From Flavobacteriaceae bacterium MAR_2010_72 (GTDB lineage: Bacteria > Bacteroidota > Bacteroidia > Flavobacteriales > Flavobacteriaceae), in the NCBI GenBank assembly GCA_003550275.1, contig QXCW01000002.1, positions 3,223,501 through 3,287,500 of the forward strand: a stretch of DNA of 64,000 nt. The letters run 5' to 3'. A model generated the notes under the pieces. The model made no database searches, had not been told where the DNA came from, and saw only the letters and a list, made by a program, of their open reading frames with translations. The position numbers and the translations under genes are program-made. Below are positions 11,272-45,300 of this stretch, one piece after another. Numbering within the stretch: position 1 is the stretch's first letter; each line of letters starts with the position of its first letter.

Positions 11272-11511
11272 TTAAGAATAAGTAACAGCACACCTCTTTC
11301 TGGTATTTAATAAAAACAACTTCCGAAACGCTTTGTGTAGTTCTAGATTTGAATGTGGGTATTCTTGATATTCGCCAAATACATTGGTTTTTACCTTTGT
11401 ATGGCATGTTGCACAGGTTAGTTCTGAACTGTTTCTATTTAGAAATTTGTCATGATATAAATTATGTCCAAAGACCGAGCAGGACAACTGACTGGTTAAG
11501 TTAGGTTTCAT
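11272..11511 (-). CDS. Small zinc-ribbon-like protein, paralog 1
   Basis: 79 residues, and the most divergent of three paralogs in this region. Shared features are a Cys before FGH (SCSVFGHNLYHDKFLN), then ELTCATCHTKVKTN, giving C-x4-H ... C-x2-C, a likely metal site. A conserved tail N--L-K-F-KLF follows. The pattern recalls the short DUF1660 proteins (Cys...GH...CxxC), but this link is from memory. It has no signal peptide and no known function. A second frame at 11216-11407 overlaps it and lacks the motif. Confidence 0.6.
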   Translation of the reverse strand: MKPNLTSQLSCSVFGHNLYHDKFLNRNSSELTCATCHTKVKTNVFGEYQEYPHSNLELHKAFRKLFLLNTRKRCAVTYS

Positions 11512-11666
11512 AAGTTAATAGATTTAGGGGACTTAAATATATAAAAAATAGTGCTCGAAGTGGTAAACGGTGTGTTTTTTCGATAAAGTGCAACTTAAAA
11601 AGCACTTTTTACTCTTTTATTTGAAATTAAAGGTGAGACACTAAAAAAGGTTTCTATTTTTGCAAA

Positions 11667-12719
11667 ATGATAGAAGATAAAAATCAATCGCGTACCTCAT
11701 TAAGTGATTTAGGTGAGTTTGGGCTCATAGAGCATTTAACCAAAAATTTTAAAATCAAGCAATCTTCAACAATTAAAGGTGTGGGAGATGATGCTGCTAT
11801 ATTGGATTTTAAGTCAAAACAAATAGTTGTTACTACCGATTTATTAGTGGAAAACGTACATTTTGATTTGAGTTATATGCCTCTAAAACACCTTGGATAC
11901 AAAGCAATAATGGTTAATCTCTCTGATGTGTATGCCATGAACGCTAATGCGACGCAAGTTACTGTATCGATTGCCATGTCTAATAGATTTCCGTTAGAAG
12001 CTATCGAGGAGTTATATGCTGGTATTGAAACCGCATCACAGATTTATAATGTTGATATTATTGGTGGCGACACAACTTCATCAACTAAAGGCTTGATCAT
12101 TTCAGTTACTGCCATTGGTGAAATCGACTCTAAAGATATTGTTTACAGAAATGGCGCCAAACCAAATGACCTTTTGGTGGTTACTGGTGATTTGGGTGCC
12201 GCTTATATGGGTTTACAAGTATTAGAAAGAGAAAAAGAAGTGTTTAAAGTAAACCCAAACAATCAACCCGATTTGGATGCTTACACTTATATCATTGAAC
12301 GCCAGTTAAAACCTGAAGCAAGAAAAGACATCGTTAAGCTTTTAAAAGAATTGAATGTTAAACCAACTGCCATGATCGATATTAGTGATGGATTGTCTTC
12401 CGAAATCATCCATATTTGTAAGCAAAGTGGTGTAGGTGTTGAACTCTATGAAAATAAAATCCCTTTAGATCCTCAAGTCATTTCAACTTGTGAGGAATTT
12501 AATATAGACAGTACAACAATCGCCCTGAACGGAGGGGAAGATTATGAATTGTTAATGACAATTTCTCAAGAAGATTTTCCAAAAATCAAAGGAAACCCAA
12601 ACCTTACCGTTATTGGGTATATAACTGAAAAAGAAAAAGGAATGCATTTAGTAACTCGAGGTGAAACCTTAATACCATTAATCGCAAAAGGCTGGAATGC
12701 CCTTAATAATCAAGAATAG
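11667..12719 (+). CDS. thiL: Thiamine-monophosphate kinase ThiL
   Basis: 350 residues. ThiL phosphorylates thiamine monophosphate to the active cofactor thiamine diphosphate. GVGDDAAILD near residue 35, TTDLLVENVHF, GYKAIMVNLSDVYAMNA and IIGGDTTSS are the ATP/Mg and substrate motifs of the AIRS-like fold, and IDISDGLSSEI and NGGEDYELL complete it. A TATTTTTG box at 11655-11662 sits only 4 nt before the ATG, so the mRNA may be almost leaderless. The 3' end overlaps a convergent gene by 17 bp. Confidence 0.95.
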   Translation: MIEDKNQSRTSLSDLGEFGLIEHLTKNFKIKQSSTIKGVGDDAAILDFKSKQIVVTTDLLVENVHFDLSYMPLKHLGYKAIMVNLSDVYAMNANATQVTVSIAMSNRFPLEAIEELYAGIETASQIYNVDIIGGDTTSSTKGLIISVTAIGEIDSKDIVYRNGAKPNDLLVVTGDLGAAYMGLQVLEREKEVFKVNPNNQPDLDAYTYIIERQLKPEARKDIVKLLKELNVKPTAMIDISDGLSSEIIHICKQSGVGVELYENKIPLDPQVISTCEEFNIDSTTIALNGGEDYELLMTISQEDFPKIKGNPNLTVIGYITEKEKGMHLVTRGETLIPLIAKGWNALNNQE

Positions 12720-12933
12720 GATCTGACTTTTTTTTACCTCTCCGTTTATTATAAACAGATTCTAATACGGAATTGATTTCTTTATATTTTGGAGTTAAAG
12801 GAGTCAATTTACCCTTTCCATTAGTGGTCATTTGGAAATCGCAATGTTTACATTTATACTCCTTTACATGATGAGTCACATCTTTAGAAACTAGAAGTTC
12901 ATGTCCAAAAATTGAACAATACATTTTTTTCAC
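12703..12933 (-). CDS. Small zinc-ribbon-like protein, paralog 2
   Basis: 76 residues: YCSIFGHELLVSKDVTHHVK, then EYKCKHCDFQMTTNGKGK and a charged helix (KYKEINSVLESVYNKRR). It aligns closely with the next gene upstream (13011-13274) across the whole length, with the same Cys/GH and CxxC positions, so the two are clearly a duplicated pair. The cysteines and histidines suggest a small zinc site; whether it binds nucleic acid or protein cannot be told. Its 3' end overlaps thiL. Confidence 0.7.
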   Translation of the reverse strand: MKKMYCSIFGHELLVSKDVTHHVKEYKCKHCDFQMTTNGKGKLTPLTPKYKEINSVLESVYNKRRGKKKSDPILDY

Positions 12934-13010: not shown

Positions 13011-13274
13011 TTAATATATCGATGAACTGAACGCTTTTCCCTTTAAACGTAACATGCGTCTGGTATAAATTTCTTCCAAAATTGAATTAATCTCTTTAAA
13101 CTTGGGAGTTAACTCGGTTAAATGTCCGTTACTATTTGTTGTAAGTTGTTTTTTACAACATTTACATGTGTATTCCTTAACATGAGAAGTCACTTCTTTT
13201 GACACTTGATATTTGTGGCCAATAATATCGCAGATAAATTTTAGCGAATTTTGCTGATTAGTAGAGTTTTTCAT
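13011..13274 (-). CDS. Small zinc-ribbon-like protein, paralog 3
   Basis: 87 residues: FICDIIGHKYQVSKEVTSHVK, then EYTCKCCKKQLTTNSNGH and FKEINSILEEIYTRRM. The central part is near-identical in pattern to 12703-12933. The extra N-terminal residues (MKNSTNQQNSLK) and the C-terminal tail differ. Upstream DNA is also related to that of its neighbour (TGGAATCCTAATTTAATGAAAA against GGGAATGCCTAAATATATGAAAA), supporting recent tandem duplication. No function known. Confidence 0.7.
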   Translation of the reverse strand: MKNSTNQQNSLKFICDIIGHKYQVSKEVTSHVKEYTCKCCKKQLTTNSNGHLTELTPKFKEINSILEEIYTRRMLRLKGKAFSSSIY

Positions 13275-13335
13275 ATCTGGTAGATTTTGGAATCCTAATT
13301 TAATGAAAAAATCATCAAATAAACGTCAATATGCA

Positions 13336-14112
13336 TTATTTTTCGATGAAATACATTATTTTGTAGGTTATTTCTTCTTTGTTTTCAATATAACTCATGT
13401 GGCCATCTTCAAATTCTGCTAATTCAATGTTTGAATTTTTAGTTTGTTCTATAAGCGTATCATACTCTAAAACAGGATCTTTACGCCCAAGTATTAACAT
13501 CTTTTTAAAGGGTAAACTTTGAAATAATTGCACCCTATTCTTTCTAATTTTCATGCCTTCTAGAGCAGCTATAATTCCTTGTAGCGACATTTTTAGGGCT
13601 TCTTCTTTTAAAATCTGAATTTGTTGAGAAAAGCGTTTTCGATTTTTAGGTCTAAACAAATTTGAAATAGCAATACGTATAAAACTTTTATGATTTTGTT
13701 TGACAGCGGCTATTGCTCTATCTCTACTTTTTTGCTTCTCAATGCTATCATTTAAAGCTGTAGAATTCATAAGACATAAACCATTCAAAACATTTGGAAA
13801 AAGTTCTGCATATGCAAGTGCTACATATCCTCCCATGGAATGACCTACCATTGTACACTTCTGTATGTTCAAATGATTTAAAACAAAATGAACAGTATTT
13901 GCCATGTCTTCCATAGTATGAATGTAGCCAATACAACCCGTATTTCCGTGACCCAATAAATCAATACAAACTACTCGATATTTTTTGGATAAAGTTTTGG
14001 CCAAATCACTCCAAATACCACTGTGCTCTAAAAATCCATGTAATAGAACCACGGCCTGACCTTGACCACATTCCTTATAAAAAACAGGGGTGTTTTTGTA
14101 ATTCACAATCAT
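13336..14112 (-). CDS. Alpha/beta-fold hydrolase
   Basis: 258 residues. LLHGFLEHSG forms the oxyanion hole region, VGHSMGGY gives nucleophile Ser92, GRKDPVLEY gives Asp212 and EDGHMSY gives His238, a complete catalytic triad. A charged helical cap lies between about residues 120 and 200. There is no signal peptide, so it is cytoplasmic. The superfamily includes esterases, C-C hydrolases and haloperoxidase-like enzymes; the substrate cannot be assigned. It is a stand-alone gene, divergent from brnQ with 68 bp between starts. Confidence 0.88.
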   Translation of the reverse strand: MIVNYKNTPVFYKECGQGQAVVLLHGFLEHSGIWSDLAKTLSKKYRVVCIDLLGHGNTGCIGYIHTMEDMANTVHFVLNHLNIQKCTMVGHSMGGYVALAYAELFPNVLNGLCLMNSTALNDSIEKQKSRDRAIAAVKQNHKSFIRIAISNLFRPKNRKRFSQQIQILKEEALKMSLQGIIAALEGMKIRKNRVQLFQSLPFKKMLILGRKDPVLEYDTLIEQTKNSNIELAEFEDGHMSYIENKEEITYKIMYFIEK

Positions 14113-19848: not shown

Positions 19849-20706
19849 ATGAAAACAATAAGAATTATAATTGGTCTCGTTGCTTTAGTATTTGTGTCCT
19901 GTTCAGAGGATAGAGATGATAATCCTCAACCTAATTTAGTTATTAAACTAAAGTTCGATGAATCCCAGCCGCGGTTGAATAACCTTGGGCAACCTTCGTC
20001 GGTCGCAAGTGGTAATGCCGCACAATCTCCAAATGTGAACCGCATGAGCGCTAATTACATAGAGTTTGCGCAAACGGCTACAACCCTATTAGGTCAGGGT
20101 GAAATTGTTTTCAAAGGCCCTGAAACAACTGCTGGCGGAAGTAATGCTATCGATTTTCAAAATGCCGTATTTGCGGGTAATAACGAAACTTTTATAACCA
20201 CCCCTTTAAGTGAAGTTGCCAATGGTAACTATCAATGGGTGCGTGTATCTTTAGCGTATCAAGAAGGCACCATAAATTTACTGGTCAATGGTACTGATAT
20301 TATTGGAACTCTTGGAAGTTTTGTGGGATTCAACAATTATATCACTTCGTTTGATTTAAATGGTAATACTATTGACGTTAATGCTAATAAGCTCCAAGGT
20401 TTTTGGGCTTTTGAAGCTTTAGGCTTCACCTCTCAAGGTCAGGCTCCAGAGGGTGCAACTACGGTTCCTAACCCCTTATTTGATTCCTCACCGGTACCTC
20501 AAGGATCATGCGTGGTTACTGGGCAATTTGCAAATGGCCTAAACATCACAGGAAACGAAACCGAAGATGTTGTTGTTACTTTGTCGTTCTCCATAAATAA
20601 TAGTTTTGAATGGACAGAAGTCAATTCAGACGGAAAATTTGAACCTAGTGCAGGTGAGCAAGTTGTTGATATGGGATTACGGGGATTAATTCCAATTGTT
20701 AATTAA
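19849..20706 (+). CDS. Lipoprotein of unknown function, probably surface exposed
   Basis: 285 residues from the ATG at 19849, chosen because MKTIRIIIGLVALVFVSC is then a proper lipoprotein signal; a TTG at 19813 would only add a non-signal N-terminus. The acylated Cys is followed by SEDRDD, an acidic stretch like the lipoprotein export signal that sends flavobacterial lipoproteins to the outer surface. The rest is beta-rich with many Asn, Thr and Gly, and two regions rich in NG turns. No family recognised. It follows the Asp-box gene by 46 bp and may share its transcript. Confidence 0.72.
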   Translation: MKTIRIIIGLVALVFVSCSEDRDDNPQPNLVIKLKFDESQPRLNNLGQPSSVASGNAAQSPNVNRMSANYIEFAQTATTLLGQGEIVFKGPETTAGGSNAIDFQNAVFAGNNETFITTPLSEVANGNYQWVRVSLAYQEGTINLLVNGTDIIGTLGSFVGFNNYITSFDLNGNTIDVNANKLQGFWAFEALGFTSQGQAPEGATTVPNPLFDSSPVPQGSCVVTGQFANGLNITGNETEDVVVTLSFSINNSFEWTEVNSDGKFEPSAGEQVVDMGLRGLIPIVN

Positions 20707-39214: not shown

Positions 39215-41113
39215 ATGAGCGATGCTTTAAAACATGAATGCGGAATTGCACTCATACGACTTTTAAAACCTCTTGAATATTATAAAGAGAAATATGGAAG
39301 TGCCTTTTATGGCGTAAACAAAATGTATCTCATGATGGAAAAACAGCACAACCGAGGTCAAGATGGTGCTGGTTTTGCCAGTATTAAGTTAGATACTAGA
39401 CCAGGTGAACGCTATATAAGTAGAGTACGTTCCATAGCTCAACAACCAATACAGGATATTTTTGCTCAAATCAACGAGCGAGTTAATAAAGAATTTGCTG
39501 AACACCCTGAATACGTTGATAATGTTGATTTGCAGAAACGCTATATTCCTTACGTTGGTGAATTGCTTTTAGGCCACGTTCGTTATGGGACCTTTGGGAA
39601 AAATAGCGTCGAAAATGTACATCCTTTTTTAAGACAGAACAATTGGATGCATAGAAACCTCATCGTTGCGGGGAATTTTAACATGACCAATGTTAATGAA
39701 TTATTCGATGGTTTGGTCCGGCTTGGTCAGCATCCAAAAGAAAAGGCTGACACCATTACTATTATGGAAAAAATTGGACACTTTTTAGATGATGCTGTTG
39801 CCAAGAAATACAAGCAACTAAAAAAAGAAGGTTATAACAAAAATGAATGCAGCCCTTTGATTGCTGAACGTTTAAACGTTGCCAAAATACTAAAGCGAGC
39901 TTCCAAAAACTGGGATGGTGGCTATGCCATGGCTGGGCTTTTAGGTCATGGTGATTCCTTTGTGCTACGCGATCCTGCAGGAATTAGACCCACTTATTAT
40001 TACAAAGATGATGAAATTGTAGTGGTTGCTTCAGAACGCCCAGTAATTCAAACCGTATTTAATGTCAACTTTGATGATGTAAAAGAGCTTGCGCCAGGTC
40101 ATGCTATTATCACAAAAAAATCTGGCGAAACCTCAATCACACAAATCATTGAGCCTTTAGAACGCAAAGCCTGTTCATTTGAACGTATTTACTTTTCGCG
40201 TGGTAGCGATGCCGAAATTTATCAAGAGCGAAAAGAACTTGGAAAACTTTTAATGCCTAGAGTATTAAAAGCCATTGATAACGATACAAAAAACACCGTG
40301 TTCTCATATATTCCAAATACTGCGGAAACTTCCTTCTACGGCATGATAGAGATGGTTGAAAAACATTTGAATGAGAAAAAAACACAAGCCATCCTAAGTG
40401 GTAACGGTAAATTATCTGCCGAAAATGTAAAGCAAATATTGTCTGAACGTCCACGGATTGAAAAGGTCGCTATTAAGGATGTAAAGTTACGAACCTTTAT
40501 TACTGAAGACAGCAGTAGAGACGACTTGGTCGCTCATGTTTACGATGTAACCTATGGAATTATAAAACCTGAAGACAATCTTGTTATTATCGATGATAGT
40601 ATTGTTAGAGGAACAACTTTAAAAAAGAGTATTATTAAAATGATGGATCGTTTGCATCCTAAAAAAATAATTGTTGTGTCATCGGCGCCACAAATTAGAT
40701 ACCCTGATTGTTATGGAATTGATATGGCAAGATTAGAAGACCTCATCGCCTTTAGGGCTATGTTAGAGTTGCTTAAAGAAAACAACAAGTATCATTTAAT
40801 TGAGGAGGTTTATCACAAATGTAAAGCCCAGGTGGACATTGAAGATAAAAACGTGAAGAATTTTGTAAAAGAATTGTACGACCAATTTACAGATGAGGAC
40901 TTAGAAAATAAAATTTCAGAACTAATCTGTGATGAAAGTGTAAAGGCTAAAGTTGAAACTATTTTCCAGCCAGTTGAAAATTTGCATAAAGCTTGCCCAA
41001 AAAATCTGGGTGATTGGTATTTTACTGGTGACTATCCAACCGATGGAGGTAACCGTGTGGTTAACAGAGCTTTCATTAATTTTTTCGAAGGAAATAAGGA
41101 GCGTGCTTATTAA
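39215..41113 (+). CDS. Long PurF-like amidophosphoribosyltransferase homolog
   Basis: 632 residues against about 480-505 for ordinary PurF. HECGIALIRL places the Ntn nucleophile at Cys9, and LGHVRYGTFG is the glutaminase core. The PRPP loop VIIDDSIVRGTTLKK and the DCYGIDMA segment are intact. However, the glutaminase loop that normally reads HNGNL/TN is here AGNFNMTN. Extra sequence lies in the N-terminal half (residues 70-110 and 185-215) and at the C-terminus. It may make phosphoribosylamine or may be a relative with another role. Cytoplasmic single gene. Confidence 0.82.
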   Translation: MSDALKHECGIALIRLLKPLEYYKEKYGSAFYGVNKMYLMMEKQHNRGQDGAGFASIKLDTRPGERYISRVRSIAQQPIQDIFAQINERVNKEFAEHPEYVDNVDLQKRYIPYVGELLLGHVRYGTFGKNSVENVHPFLRQNNWMHRNLIVAGNFNMTNVNELFDGLVRLGQHPKEKADTITIMEKIGHFLDDAVAKKYKQLKKEGYNKNECSPLIAERLNVAKILKRASKNWDGGYAMAGLLGHGDSFVLRDPAGIRPTYYYKDDEIVVVASERPVIQTVFNVNFDDVKELAPGHAIITKKSGETSITQIIEPLERKACSFERIYFSRGSDAEIYQERKELGKLLMPRVLKAIDNDTKNTVFSYIPNTAETSFYGMIEMVEKHLNEKKTQAILSGNGKLSAENVKQILSERPRIEKVAIKDVKLRTFITEDSSRDDLVAHVYDVTYGIIKPEDNLVIIDDSIVRGTTLKKSIIKMMDRLHPKKIIVVSSAPQIRYPDCYGIDMARLEDLIAFRAMLELLKENNKYHLIEEVYHKCKAQVDIEDKNVKNFVKELYDQFTDEDLENKISELICDESVKAKVETIFQPVENLHKACPKNLGDWYFTGDYPTDGGNRVVNRAFINFFEGNKERAY

Positions 41114-41188
41114 TAAAATTTCTGTTTTTGTAACAGATAATCCATAAAATCACACTTTTTATCTGAAAAAAATGCATTTCATCTAGTA

Positions 41189-41223
41189 TTTGTAAATCGA
41201 TAAACAAAATACATATACATTAG
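41189..41223 (+). promoter_or_regulatory. Predicted promoter of small-RNA candidate 1
   Basis: TTTG (41189-41192), 23-nt spacer, TACATTAG (41216-41223, one mismatch). It ends 4 nt before the conserved block at 41228. Confidence 0.5.
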
Positions 41224-41227
41224 CATT

Positions 41228-41300
41228 ACCATAACATAAGTAGGTTAAGTTCATGGTAGATTTGGGGCAAAAAAAGGTGAACACTCGTTCACCTTTTTTT
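41228..41300 (+). ncRNA. Candidate small RNA, copy 1
   Basis: A 73-nt block almost identical to 41475-41545. It can fold into a first hairpin (ACCAT...AAC with GTT...ATGGT, one bulged base), then a single-stranded AGATTTGGGGCAAAAAAA, then a perfect 8-bp terminator (AGGTGAAC / GTTCACCT, loop ACTC) and a T7 run. It lies in a 531-bp gene-free stretch after the PurF-like gene, with its own promoter-like sequence. The body contains a short ATG frame, but a one-base length change between copies shifts it, which argues against translation. The remaining DNA of 41114-41644 shows no gene. Confidence 0.65.
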
Positions 41301-41474
41301 ATTGAAAATCACTTCAACTAGTCAAGCCAAAACCAAAATTGGAATCGATTCACTCTCTTTAACTTTTTGTAAGGAATTTAACTAAAAACCTCTCAATAAT
41401 CCTTTTAAGCCAATTTATAAGTCGTTTGTCTAAAAAATTAAACAAAAAGAAATAAGACCTTATATATTTGTTTC

Positions 41475-41545
41475 ACCATAACATAAGTAGGTTAAGTTTA
41501 TGGTAGATTTGGGGCAAAAAAGGTGAACACTCGTTCACCTTTTTT
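41475..41545 (+). ncRNA. Candidate small RNA, copy 2
   Basis: A 71-nt block differing from copy 1 by one C-to-T change, at the bulge of the first hairpin, and by A-run/T-run length. The terminator hairpin is identical. A perfect -7 box TATATTTG at 41463-41470 ends 4 nt before the block, the same spacing as in copy 1; its -33 element is poor. Flanking DNA is unrelated between copies, so selection appears to have kept the 70-nt unit. An Rfam family known only from Bacteroidota (for example Flavo-1) could include it; this was not checked. Confidence 0.65.
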
Positions 41546-41644: not shown

Positions 41645-42253
41645 CTATTTAGCCAGAGCATATCGTCTTTCAACTTCATTCCAGTTAATGACATTAAAAA
41701 ATGCACTAATATAATCTGGTCTTCGGTTTTGATAATTTAAATAGTAAGCGTGTTCCCAAACATCCAATCCTAAAATTGGTGTTCCACCACAGCCAACACC
41801 TGGCATTAATGGATTGTCTTGATTTGGTGATGAACATACTTCTACTTTTCCGCCCTTATGTACACATAACCAAGCCCAACCCGAACCAAATCGAGTTGCT
41901 GCTGCTTTACTGAATGCTTCTTTAAAAGCGTCAAAGTTTCCGTAAGCTGCTTCAATAGCGTCCTTAAGTTCTCCTGATAACCTTCCTTTTCCTTCTGGAT
42001 TCATCACATCCCAAAACAAGGAATGGTTATAAAATCCGCCACCATTATTTCTAACAGCGCCATTATTCATATCTAGATTTATAAGGATATTATCTATGGT
42101 TTTTCCTTCTAAATCGGTGCCCTCAATAGCAGCATTAAGATTATTTGTGTAACCTTGGTGGTGTTTAGAGTGATGTATTTCCATCGTACGCGCATCTATA
42201 TGAGGTTCTAACGCATCGTAAGCATATTTTAATTTCGGTAATTCGAAAGCCAT
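41645..42253 (-). CDS. sodA: Superoxide dismutase [Mn/Fe]
   Basis: 202 residues. Metal ligands are His27 ([13 protein letters not shown]), the His in [11 protein letters not shown], and Asp/His in [18 protein letters not shown] in the N-terminal half and the Gln in [11 protein letters not shown] resemble manganese or cambialistic enzymes more than iron enzymes, so the metal is probably Mn, though this cannot be settled here. No signal peptide, so cytoplasmic. A TAAATTTG box at 42296-42289 lies upstream on the minus strand. Confidence 0.95.
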
Positions 42254-42374: not shown

Positions 42375-45300
42375 ATGTCAAAAACTAGCGCCTTTACCAT
42401 TTATAACGCTTCGGCAGGAAGTGGAAAGACACATACTGTTGTAAAGAATTATTTAAAAATTCTCTTTCAATCAAAATCTGCCCTTCCATTTAAAAATATT
42501 TTAGCCTTAACCTTTACCAATAAAGCTGTTGGTGAAATGAAAGAGCGCATTATTGAGACTTTAAAAACATTTTCAAATGAATCCATTTTAGAATCTGGTA
42601 ATACGATGTTCAATGAATTGGCCAAAGAGTTGGAAATGGACACTACATTATTACATAAAAAATCCCAACGCTTATTGCTTTCCATAGTTCATAACTATGC
42701 TGCTTTTGACATCTCAACTATTGATAAATTTAATCACAAGCTTATAAGAACTTTCGCCTATGACCTGAAACTACCGTTGAATTTTGAAGTGGAACTTGAC
42801 ACACACGAGATGCTTGCAAAAGCCGTTGATTCACTTATTGATAAGGCAGGGACAGATGAAGAACTTACTAAAGTGTTAGTTGAATTTGCTATTGAAAAAG
42901 CCGATGACGATAGAAGCTGGGACGTAACTTACGACTTTAATGCCATTGCTAAACTTTTAATAGATGAGAACGAGATTCCGTTTGTTGAACTCATTGCCGA
43001 TAAAACCCTTGAAGATTTTAAAAATCTTAAAAACATCATCAATGAACGATTGAAAACCATTGCATCTCATGTCGTTCAAATCGCTAAAAAAACCCTCACT
43101 TTAATTGAAGAATGTGGTTTAGAACACAATGATTTTTCTGGCCAAAATGGCTATGTCCCGAGTTACTTTTTAAAACTAACCCAAAACGATTTCACTGTCA
43201 CTTATGATAAGGTTTGGATGGAGAAAATCGAAACTGACCCGCTATATCCAAAAACTTCAACTCCAGAGGATATCAAATCGATTATAGATCGTATTCAGCC
43301 ACAAATTGTTTCAAGCTTCACTACAACCAAAAAGCAGATCATTCAATATAAATTTTTAAAAAATACCCAAAGAAACCTGACACCTGTTTCTGTCTTAAAT
43401 GAAATCAACAAAACGCTTAAAGTAATTAAAGACGACGAAAATAAAGTTCTCATTTCAGAATTTAACTCCATTATTTCGAAGGAAATAAACCAACAACCCG
43501 CACCCTTTATTTATGAACGCATTGGCGAAAAGTTTAAGCACTATTTTATTGATGAATTTCAAGACACTTCAGTCTTGCAATGGCAAAATTTGGTACCGTT
43601 AATTGATAATGCTTTAGCCGGTGAAACCCTAAAAGGCGAAACCGGTTCGGTAATGTTAGTGGGTGATGCAAAACAAGCTATTTACCGCTGGCGAGGTGGA
43701 AGAGCAGAGCAGTTTATTGAGCTTTATAATAAAACGAATCACCCTTTAGTCATTGAGCAAAATATTGAAAACTTGCCAAAAAACTATAGAAGCACCAAAC
43801 AAGTTGTGCAATTCAACAATTCGTTTTTTAAACATATTTCTGGATTTGTGTTTTCAAACCCAGAACATCAACAGATCTTTGAGGCAAGCTCCCAAAATAA
43901 ATCCAAAGATGAAGACGGCTATGTAGAACTTCATTTTTTAGACACAACAAACGAAGACACCGAGCTTTTATATTGTGAAAAAATTCTAGAGACTTTAAAC
44001 CGTGTGCAAGCCAATGGATTTAGTTTGAACGACATTTGCATTGTCACACGAAAAGTCAAGGAGGGTATTGCCATAGCAGAATTTTTAAGTTCCCAAAACA
44101 TTGCTATTGTGTCTTCAGAAACGCTCCTCCTGAAGAATTCCCCAGAGGTAGCGTTCATTGTCAATGTCATGACATTGGTGCTACAACCTTCAAACAAGAA
44201 AGTTAAGATGGAAGTGCTTACGTATTTAGACAGGTATCTCTTAAATGTTGATGATAGCCATTCATTTTACGAAGAGTTAGTGGTATTGGAAGGTTTCAAA
44301 TTCTTTAAAGCATTAGAGTCGCGTGGGTTTTATTTTAATCTTGATGTGTTTATAACATTTCCTATATATGAAGCTGTTGAAACCATTGTTAGAGCATTCC
44401 ACCTTAACAAAGATTCAAATGCATACATTCAATATTTTTTAGATGAAGTATTAGATTACAGTCTTAAAAACGATGTCGATTTAGCTAGTTTTCTTGAGTT
44501 TTGGGAACGTAAAAAAGAAAAATTAAGTGTGGTTTCCCTAGAAAATAATGGTGCTGTTACCATAATGACCATTCACAAGTCTAAAGGTTTAGAGTATCCA
44601 ATAATTATTTTTCCTTTTGCTAATCAAGACATTTATTTTGATAAGAGCCCTAAAGTTTGGTTTCCTGTAGACGAACAACAATTCAATGGTTTCAATTATC
44701 TCTATCTAAATTTAAACAAGGACCTTGAAAGCTACAGTATATTGGGCGCCCAAATGTATCATAGTTACCGCGCACAATTGGAGCTTGATAGCATTAATTT
44801 ATTGTACGTAGCTCTTACTAGAGCTGCCCAACAATTATATGTCATTTCAGAACTTGACCTTACTAGTAAAGGCAGTGAAAAGCAAAATCTTTATTCTGGT
44901 TTATTGATTCATTATTTAAAAGAACATGAGCTATGGGATATCAACCAGAGTACCTATAGTTTTGGAAATCCAAACCAAATTGAAGTGGAATCTGAAAAAG
45001 TGAAAACCGACCATTTTATTCCTTTTATTTCTACAGCAAGGCAGCAACACAATTTAAACATTGTTACCAGCGCTGGTTATTTATGGGATACTTCACAAGA
45101 AAAAGCTATTGAAAGAGGCAATTTGATTCACCTCATCATGTCACAAATAAAAGTGAGTAGTGATGTTGATTTTGTCTTTGATACCCTAATAAGTTTGGGC
45201 CATATAAATTCATCTCAATCAGAAATATTAAGACCGTTTATAATGAACATTGTTCAGCACGAAAAACTAATAGTTTATTTTGATCATGAGCTCACCATTT

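Follow-up and report, generated by a model that had tools for sequence, protein, structure and literature searches.

Two short, near-identical blocks in the genome of Flavobacteriaceae bacterium MAR_2010_72, at positions 41228-41300 and 41475-41545 of the 64,000-nucleotide stretch analysed here (the window), are probably two genes of one trans-acting small RNA (sRNA), which provides the best explanation of the locus as a whole. Sequence features strongly support, for each block, a sigma-A type promoter and a non-coding transcript of about 72 nt that consists of a 5' hairpin, the single-stranded GAUUUGGGGCAAAA and an intrinsic terminator. Taken together, the sequence evidence suggests that a two-component regulator turns on expression of this sRNA, which would silence certain messages for small proteins by acting at their start codons and would itself be titrated by a decoy RNA. 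Base-pairing sRNAs characterised to date are, to our knowledge, few in Bacteroidota and next to none in Flavobacteriaceae. A near-invariant, multicopy sRNA found in ~80% of the genomes of a family, together with an operator, a candidate target and a candidate sponge, makes for a directly testable circuit.

Probable twin genes between purF and sodA

The elements of the locus, all within the window, are the following.

41228..41300, + strand: sRNA copy 1, 73 nt (model R2, 88.0 bits)
41475..41545, + strand: sRNA copy 2, 71 nt (model R2, 90.0 bits)
41216..41223, + strand: -7 box of copy 1, TACATTAG, at -12 to -5 (column conservation)
41463..41470, + strand: -7 box of copy 2, TATATTTG, at -12 to -5 (column conservation)
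41228..41257, + strand: 5' hairpin of copy 1 (ACCAUAAC..GUU-C-AUGGU; 97% of cells paired across 101 distinct copies)
41475..41504, + strand: 5' hairpin of copy 2 (folding and alignment)
41249..41268, + strand: candidate seed of copy 1, GUUCAUGGUAGAUUUGGGGC, made up of the start-codon-complementary part and UAGAUUUGGGGC (near-invariant in 121 copies)
41496..41515, + strand: candidate seed of copy 2, GUUUAUGGUAGAUUUGGGGC (near-invariance and pairing tests)
41269..41300, + strand: intrinsic terminator of copy 1 (folding; compensatory changes at 6/6 counted pairs)
41516..41545, + strand: intrinsic terminator of copy 2 (folding; a terminator-like site is called here)
39215..41113, + strand: purF-like gene (amidophosphoribosyltransferase), the upstream anchor, adjoining the copies in 87/89 relative loci
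41645..42253, - strand: sodA-like gene (superoxide dismutase), the downstream anchor; both anchors are present in 79/89 relative loci

The blocks lie where the earlier note, made from the letters of this stretch, had placed them, and they are distinguished, as it had reported, by a single substitution at the hairpin bulge (C25 in copy 1, U25 in copy 2) and by the lengths of the A-run (7/6) and the T-run (7/6), being otherwise equal. Both -7 boxes stop 4 nt upstream of their blocks; with the first A of the block counted as +1, they occupy positions -12 to -5, the position reported for the TAnnTTTG box of Flavobacterium psychrophilum (PMC9723704). Each block folds into two hairpins (z = -4.7 for copy 1 and -4.1 for copy 2, relative to shuffled sequence), and the DNA between the blocks shows no folding beyond that of its shuffles (z = 0.4 and 0.9). 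The terminator is common to both blocks, as had been proposed, and its stem measures 13-14 bp once the A-U part is counted, in place of the 8 bp first given. Likewise, the GGGGC-A-run singled out before as a shared single-stranded region does form part of the likely seed, the limits of which have to be redrawn: the seed reaches 5' through UAGAU into the 3' arm of the hairpin (UUYAUGG).

Conservation across the family and a double operator

A BLAST search with a 72-nt query gave matches to the block in 239 of 299 Flavobacteriaceae genomes, and all of the divergent genomes that were re-examined (40/40) carry it. Zobellia, Maribacter, Winogradskyella, Aquimarina, Lacinutrix, Salegentibacter and many Flavobacterium species are among the named relatives. 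The usual setting is a tandem array between purF and sodA, and family-wide membership in such arrays of 1-7 copies is strongly supported by the sequence comparison. The block is kept in most members of this family of marine and soil bacteria while its flanks diverge, and the terminator bears compensatory changes at all six counted pairs; a lack of such conservation in relatives had been named beforehand as grounds for giving up the sRNA interpretation, and the comparison provides no such grounds. With the models used, other Flavobacteriales families yielded no convincing member, weak matches outside Flavobacteriaceae (E > 0.005) being taken as chance. The published sRNA lists of F. psychrophilum (PMC9723704) and F. 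columnare (PMC5395568) may contain the same transcript under another name.

A structural alignment of 121 copies, 101 of them distinct, shows pairing of 99.5% in the terminator helix and of 97% in the 5' helix, the latter chiefly through invariance and through A-to-G changes in the 5' arm that preserve G-U pairs; double compensatory changes are almost absent from hairpin 1 in this alignment. One diverged copy in a GC-rich genome (L361, G165:C16), adjoining a normal copy, has CCAC/GUGG in place of CCAU/AUGG and still folds the hairpin, with TAGATTGGGG retained, and another (L358) has a replaced loop, with the outer arms and the seed retained. The 3' arm of the 5' hairpin, running into UAGAUUUGGGGC, is almost invariant. 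This fixed arm and the fixed single-stranded UAGAUUUGGGGC suggest that the letters themselves are read by something else, most simply through RNA pairing. Both the A-run length and a GGTA(A)GATT indel vary among copies, which rules out a conserved reading frame.

A cis-acting role of the blocks, as leaders, attenuators or a repeated DNA element in place of independent sRNA genes, is extremely improbable. Such elements could account for the tandem repetition and the fixed place between two genes, but the next + strand gene starts only at 42375, ~830 bp on, in agreement with the 800 bp free of + strand genes noted before; moreover, each copy has a promoter, an operator and a terminator of its own, the terminator covariation is an RNA-level signature, extra copies occur at unrelated loci, and no copies were found in phages, plasmids or viral contigs. 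A mobile-element origin was rejected on this last count. An own promoter, an intrinsic terminator, the lack of coding potential and conservation as RNA are all seen at the sequence level, and the duplicated trans-acting sRNA that the earlier note had envisaged remains the best reading of the blocks.

The genome of MAR_2010_72 has a third copy outside the array, at C2:1751403-1751476. This and other lone copies away from the purF-sodA locus (L364, L366, L365 and L367) have neighbours that differ among genera; for L364 and L366, the neighbourhood is kept within one genus.

Alignment of 156 non-redundant upstream regions revealed a direct repeat, GYANTTYATC, whose two half-sites (C at 88%) lie at roughly -74 to -63 and -54 to -43, a period of exactly 20 bp. 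With a matrix (PWM) score of >12 as the cut-off, this double operator is found in 146/156 GGGGC-type copies, 27/32 GGGGA-type copies and 0/20 GGGACG-type copies, compared with 3/201 control windows, and a matrix trained on one half of the data recovers it in 90/109 of the held-out half. Both copies in the window carry it.

41151..41188, + strand: double operator of copy 1, half-sites ACTTTTTATCT and GCATTTCATCT, 20 bp apart (PWM 24.8)
41398..41435, + strand: double operator of copy 2, half-sites CCTTTTAAGCC and GTCGTTTGTCT, 20 bp apart (PWM 27.0)

The architecture resembles that of LytTR sites, in which a pair of short direct repeats, spaced by roughly two turns of the helix, precedes the promoter. 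In published LytTR sites, spacers of 11-13 nt separate two repeats of 9-11 nt, and the GGCATTTCAT repeat bound by the LytTR protein YpdB is similar to the half-site GCATTTCATC (PMC4847170); the spacer here is 11 nt if the half-sites are taken as 9 nt and 9-10 nt if they are taken as 10-11 nt, at or just below the published range. From this site architecture we infer a LytTR-family response regulator. A parallel exists in Staphylococcus aureus, in which the LytTR regulator AgrA drives a regulatory RNA, RNAIII, from two direct repeats centred near -60 (PMC4227749), against near -58 here; by contrast, RNAIII is long, single-copy and peptide-encoding, and the regulator of the flavobacterial sRNA is a putative one.

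The GGGACG/GGGATG subtype, in which this motif replaces GGGGC, is often last in its array (L039:661-731, L051:2667-2737, L085:567-637 and similar loci). It has a conserved upstream CAATACCAGTAWTTTAG of its own and may be constitutive or under different control.

Candidate targets, a candidate sponge and the proposed circuit

A scan with the operator matrix covered ~0.86 Mb of the MAR_2010_72 genome, sampled as stretches (about a quarter). Among its matches were two paralogous genes in the window for small Cys-rich proteins, spA and spB, the products of which have a weak similarity to DUF1660 that lies below its cut-off.

11272..11511, - strand: candidate target spB, 79 aa, Cys-rich (translation and pairing)
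11506..11530, - strand: anti-seed site of spB, CCCCTAAATCTA..ATGAAA, over the start codon (duplex -19.2 kcal/mol, percentile 0.014)
11557..11594, - strand: double operator upstream of spB (PWM 13.4)
13011..13274, - strand: candidate target spA, 87 aa, Cys-rich (translation; best-ranked of 35 window genes)
13269..13292, - strand: anti-seed site of spA, CCAAAATCTACCAGATATGAAA (duplex -17.1 kcal/mol, percentile 0.033)
13320..13357, - strand: double operator upstream of spA (PWM 22.4)

At the spB start, the duplexes predicted for three genera have energies of -19.2, -19.6 and -23.0 kcal/mol, placing them at percentiles 0.014, 0.008 and <0.002 among 643 gene starts, with the relatives as the only independent test, since the targets were first spotted via AAATCTA and the percentiles of the own genome are therefore partly selected. 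In the two other genera, the spacer between the CCCCTAAATCTA-type part and ATGAAA is altered and both parts are kept. spA came first among 35 window gene groups (each with at least two relatives) in a ranking blind to the operator, and it pairs weakly in two relatives, at percentiles 0.09 and 0.14. A conserved complementary site is thus seen in the sequences of spB from three genera, and a weaker one in those of spA.

Compared with shuffles, gene starts across the genome sample seemed to pair with the seed significantly well; internal ATG windows, however, gave a similar mean shift, with only the strongest tail being start-specific (z about -2.2). Because the mean shift is mostly lost in this comparison, the gene-start excess was not used as proof. 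A full anti-seed search (<=3 mismatches) returned no match at any gene start in the genome, which led us to reject a long perfect target, and signal-peptide enrichment among predicted targets was discarded as not robust past the top 30. Given the weak start-specific signal and the lack of a long perfect target, spB stands as the one strong candidate, and pairing of the sRNA with its start region is supported by the sequence conservation.

Three further genes were recorded in the course of these searches. Directly after spA lies a second spA-like small Cys-rich gene (12703-12924, - strand) with no anti-seed site (rank 0.56). A lipoprotein gene (19849-20706, + strand) with ACCCCAGAATCTATGAAA at its start is a further candidate target, with a rank of 0.034 in the own genome and mixed results in relatives. 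The highest operator score in the sampled genome, 31.6, belongs to a site (L206, minus strand, index 19785, within G000:C2:3140001-3160000) upstream of a gene for a 46-aa membrane-anchored small protein, MKKNLLSAIVIFFVTVAF, a possible further member of the regulon.

The operator also occurs (PWM 19.9) between CoA-transferase B and Opp-type ABC genes at C2:79.6 kb, where an anti-sRNA transcription unit is supported by its sequence elements.

L009:1600-1970 (G000:C2 ~79.6-79.97 kb), + strand: candidate sponge, with the operator, three anti-sRNA sites and a terminator

Duplexes of this RNA with the sRNA are predicted at -33, -45 and -48 kcal/mol, one for each site. The same intergenic place in another genus (L359) has anti-seed sites and similar boxes, the arrangement being known from these two genomes only. 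The combination of anti-seed sites with a promoter and a terminator of its own makes the RNA from C2:79.6-79.9 kb a probable sponge of the sRNA. Three seed-like cores on the minus strand of the locus could also be read as a relic array of sRNA seeds on that strand, with no sponge involved. This seems rather improbable, given that the minus strand lacks the 5' hairpin and any terminator past the cores, that the double operator and the terminator belong to the plus strand, and that the arrangement recurs at the equal place in a second genus.

These findings also bear on whether the blocks might instead specify a protein-binding decoy RNA (CsrB- or 6S-like), in which the invariant GUUYAUGGUARAUUUGGGGC would bind an RNA-binding protein that the copies titrate. 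The loop and 3' arm are indeed conserved far past the needs of a hairpin, up to seven copies occur, and UAGGUUAAG is invariant yet lies outside the best target duplexes. However, no match to RRM_1 (PF00076, the RbpB type) was found in the own genome, with Bacteroides ihuae positive as the control, and no Hfq in 60 Flavobacteriaceae genomes, which leaves no known candidate protein; furthermore, an RNA three times complementary to the invariant stretch, with its own operator and terminator, points to base pairing, as does the complement retained at the spB start in three genera. We therefore judge a protein decoy quite unlikely and retain the base-pairing sRNA.

For this sRNA, we infer LytTR activation, toehold pairing with hairpin opening over the AUG, translational repression and sponge action from the sequence elements described above. 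A LytTR-family response regulator would bind the two direct repeats at ~-74 to -43 and activate transcription of the sRNA. Pairing would begin with the single-stranded UAGAUUUGGGGC as the toehold, at CCCC(U)AAAUCUA some 9-19 nt before the start, and the 3' arm of the hairpin (UUYAUGG) would open and cover the AUG; GAUUUGGGG of the sRNA is proposed to pair with CCCCUAAAUC of the target, and the pair with the G of the AUG would be preserved with either the C or the U that distinguishes the copies. Placed on the start region, the sRNA would block ribosome entry and so repress translation, with the small Cys-rich proteins spB and spA as likely direct targets. spA and spB share their operator with the sRNA, so the activator would induce both the targets and their repressor, an incoherent feed-forward loop; the candidate sponge, under that operator as well and with its three anti-sRNA sites, would keep the sRNA in check.

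Relation to FopS and other regulatory RNAs

No family of Rfam 15, Flavo-1 included, reaches its gathering score on the blocks, a tRNA being the sole match in the window. The best score with FopS (RF04319) is 21.3-21.7 bits, against a gathering score of 56 and 72-82 bits for true FopS loci, and this sub-threshold match covers UUCAUGGU..AGAUUU; other sub-threshold matches (STnc40, MicX and others) were dismissed as mostly terminator matches. The flavobacterial sRNA shares with FopS/GibS of Bacteroides (RF04319, RF04182; PMC11697453, PMC7366714) a multicopy, short format, an intrinsic terminator, a setting in which no Hfq is found and the core UUCAUGGUA..AGAUUU ahead of the terminator, and start-codon binding has been published for the Bacteroides RNAs. 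FopS blocks translation of the susC message near its start codon, its R1' pairs with start regions, and it is antagonised by the RRM protein RbpB (PMC11697453). Conversely, the flavobacterial sRNA has a 5' hairpin, GGGGC in place of AAGGUUAA, tandem purF-sodA arrays and the double operator. The FopS R1 seed, UUCAUGGUAUUAGAUUU in a single-stranded 5' end, is not reproduced here: the core is shared, the UU insertion is absent and the 5' hairpin precedes it. Class-wide matches to a loose pattern of the core were, FopS excepted, rejected as mostly chance.

A divergent FopS branch that regulates SusC-type transporter messages as in Bacteroides would be in keeping with the common core, with the exact TTCATGGTATTAGATTT carried by confirmed FopS loci of four Bacteroidales families, with the multicopy state of both RNAs and with the pairing of R1' to start regions. 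It is nevertheless unlikely in view of the score of 21.7 against 56 bits, the single-stranded 5' end of FopS with neither 5' hairpin nor GGGGC, the absence of the partner RbpB (RRM_1) from the own genome and the lack of any intermediate found in other Flavobacteriales families; the shared core, moreover, is antisense to AUGAA starts and could on that account have arisen by convergence. On account of the 5' hairpin, GGGGC, the operator, the missing RRM_1 protein and the score below gathering, we do not file the sRNA as FopS, although its mode of action is probably similar. That both RNAs have this seed core suggests that the targeting of start codons by sRNAs may go back a long way in the phylum.

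Going further, one may envision a family-wide circuit in which one LytTR regulator acts through the 20-bp-period operator to drive the array, the small-protein targets and the sponge, with neither Hfq nor an RRM protein and with a common ancestor shared with FopS. This extended scheme is possible but doubtful; if true, it would constitute a complete and previously undescribed circuit of a whole bacterial family. The Qrr sRNAs of Vibrio similarly comprise several near-identical copies under one response regulator, but are dispersed, sigma-54/LuxO-driven and Hfq-dependent, with no sequence relation to the sRNA described here. Rfp18 of F. psychrophilum is likewise a flavobacterial sRNA that acts on mRNAs and is conserved beyond one species; its description, in which a third stem-loop pairs with protease mRNAs (PMC9723704), sets it apart from the present sRNA with its two stem-loops.

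FopS loci from several Bacteroidales families (L156-L186) share an upstream GTTGCATAACATAAA-like box, and the flavobacterial sRNA likewise has CATAACATAA close to its 5' end, perhaps by chance.
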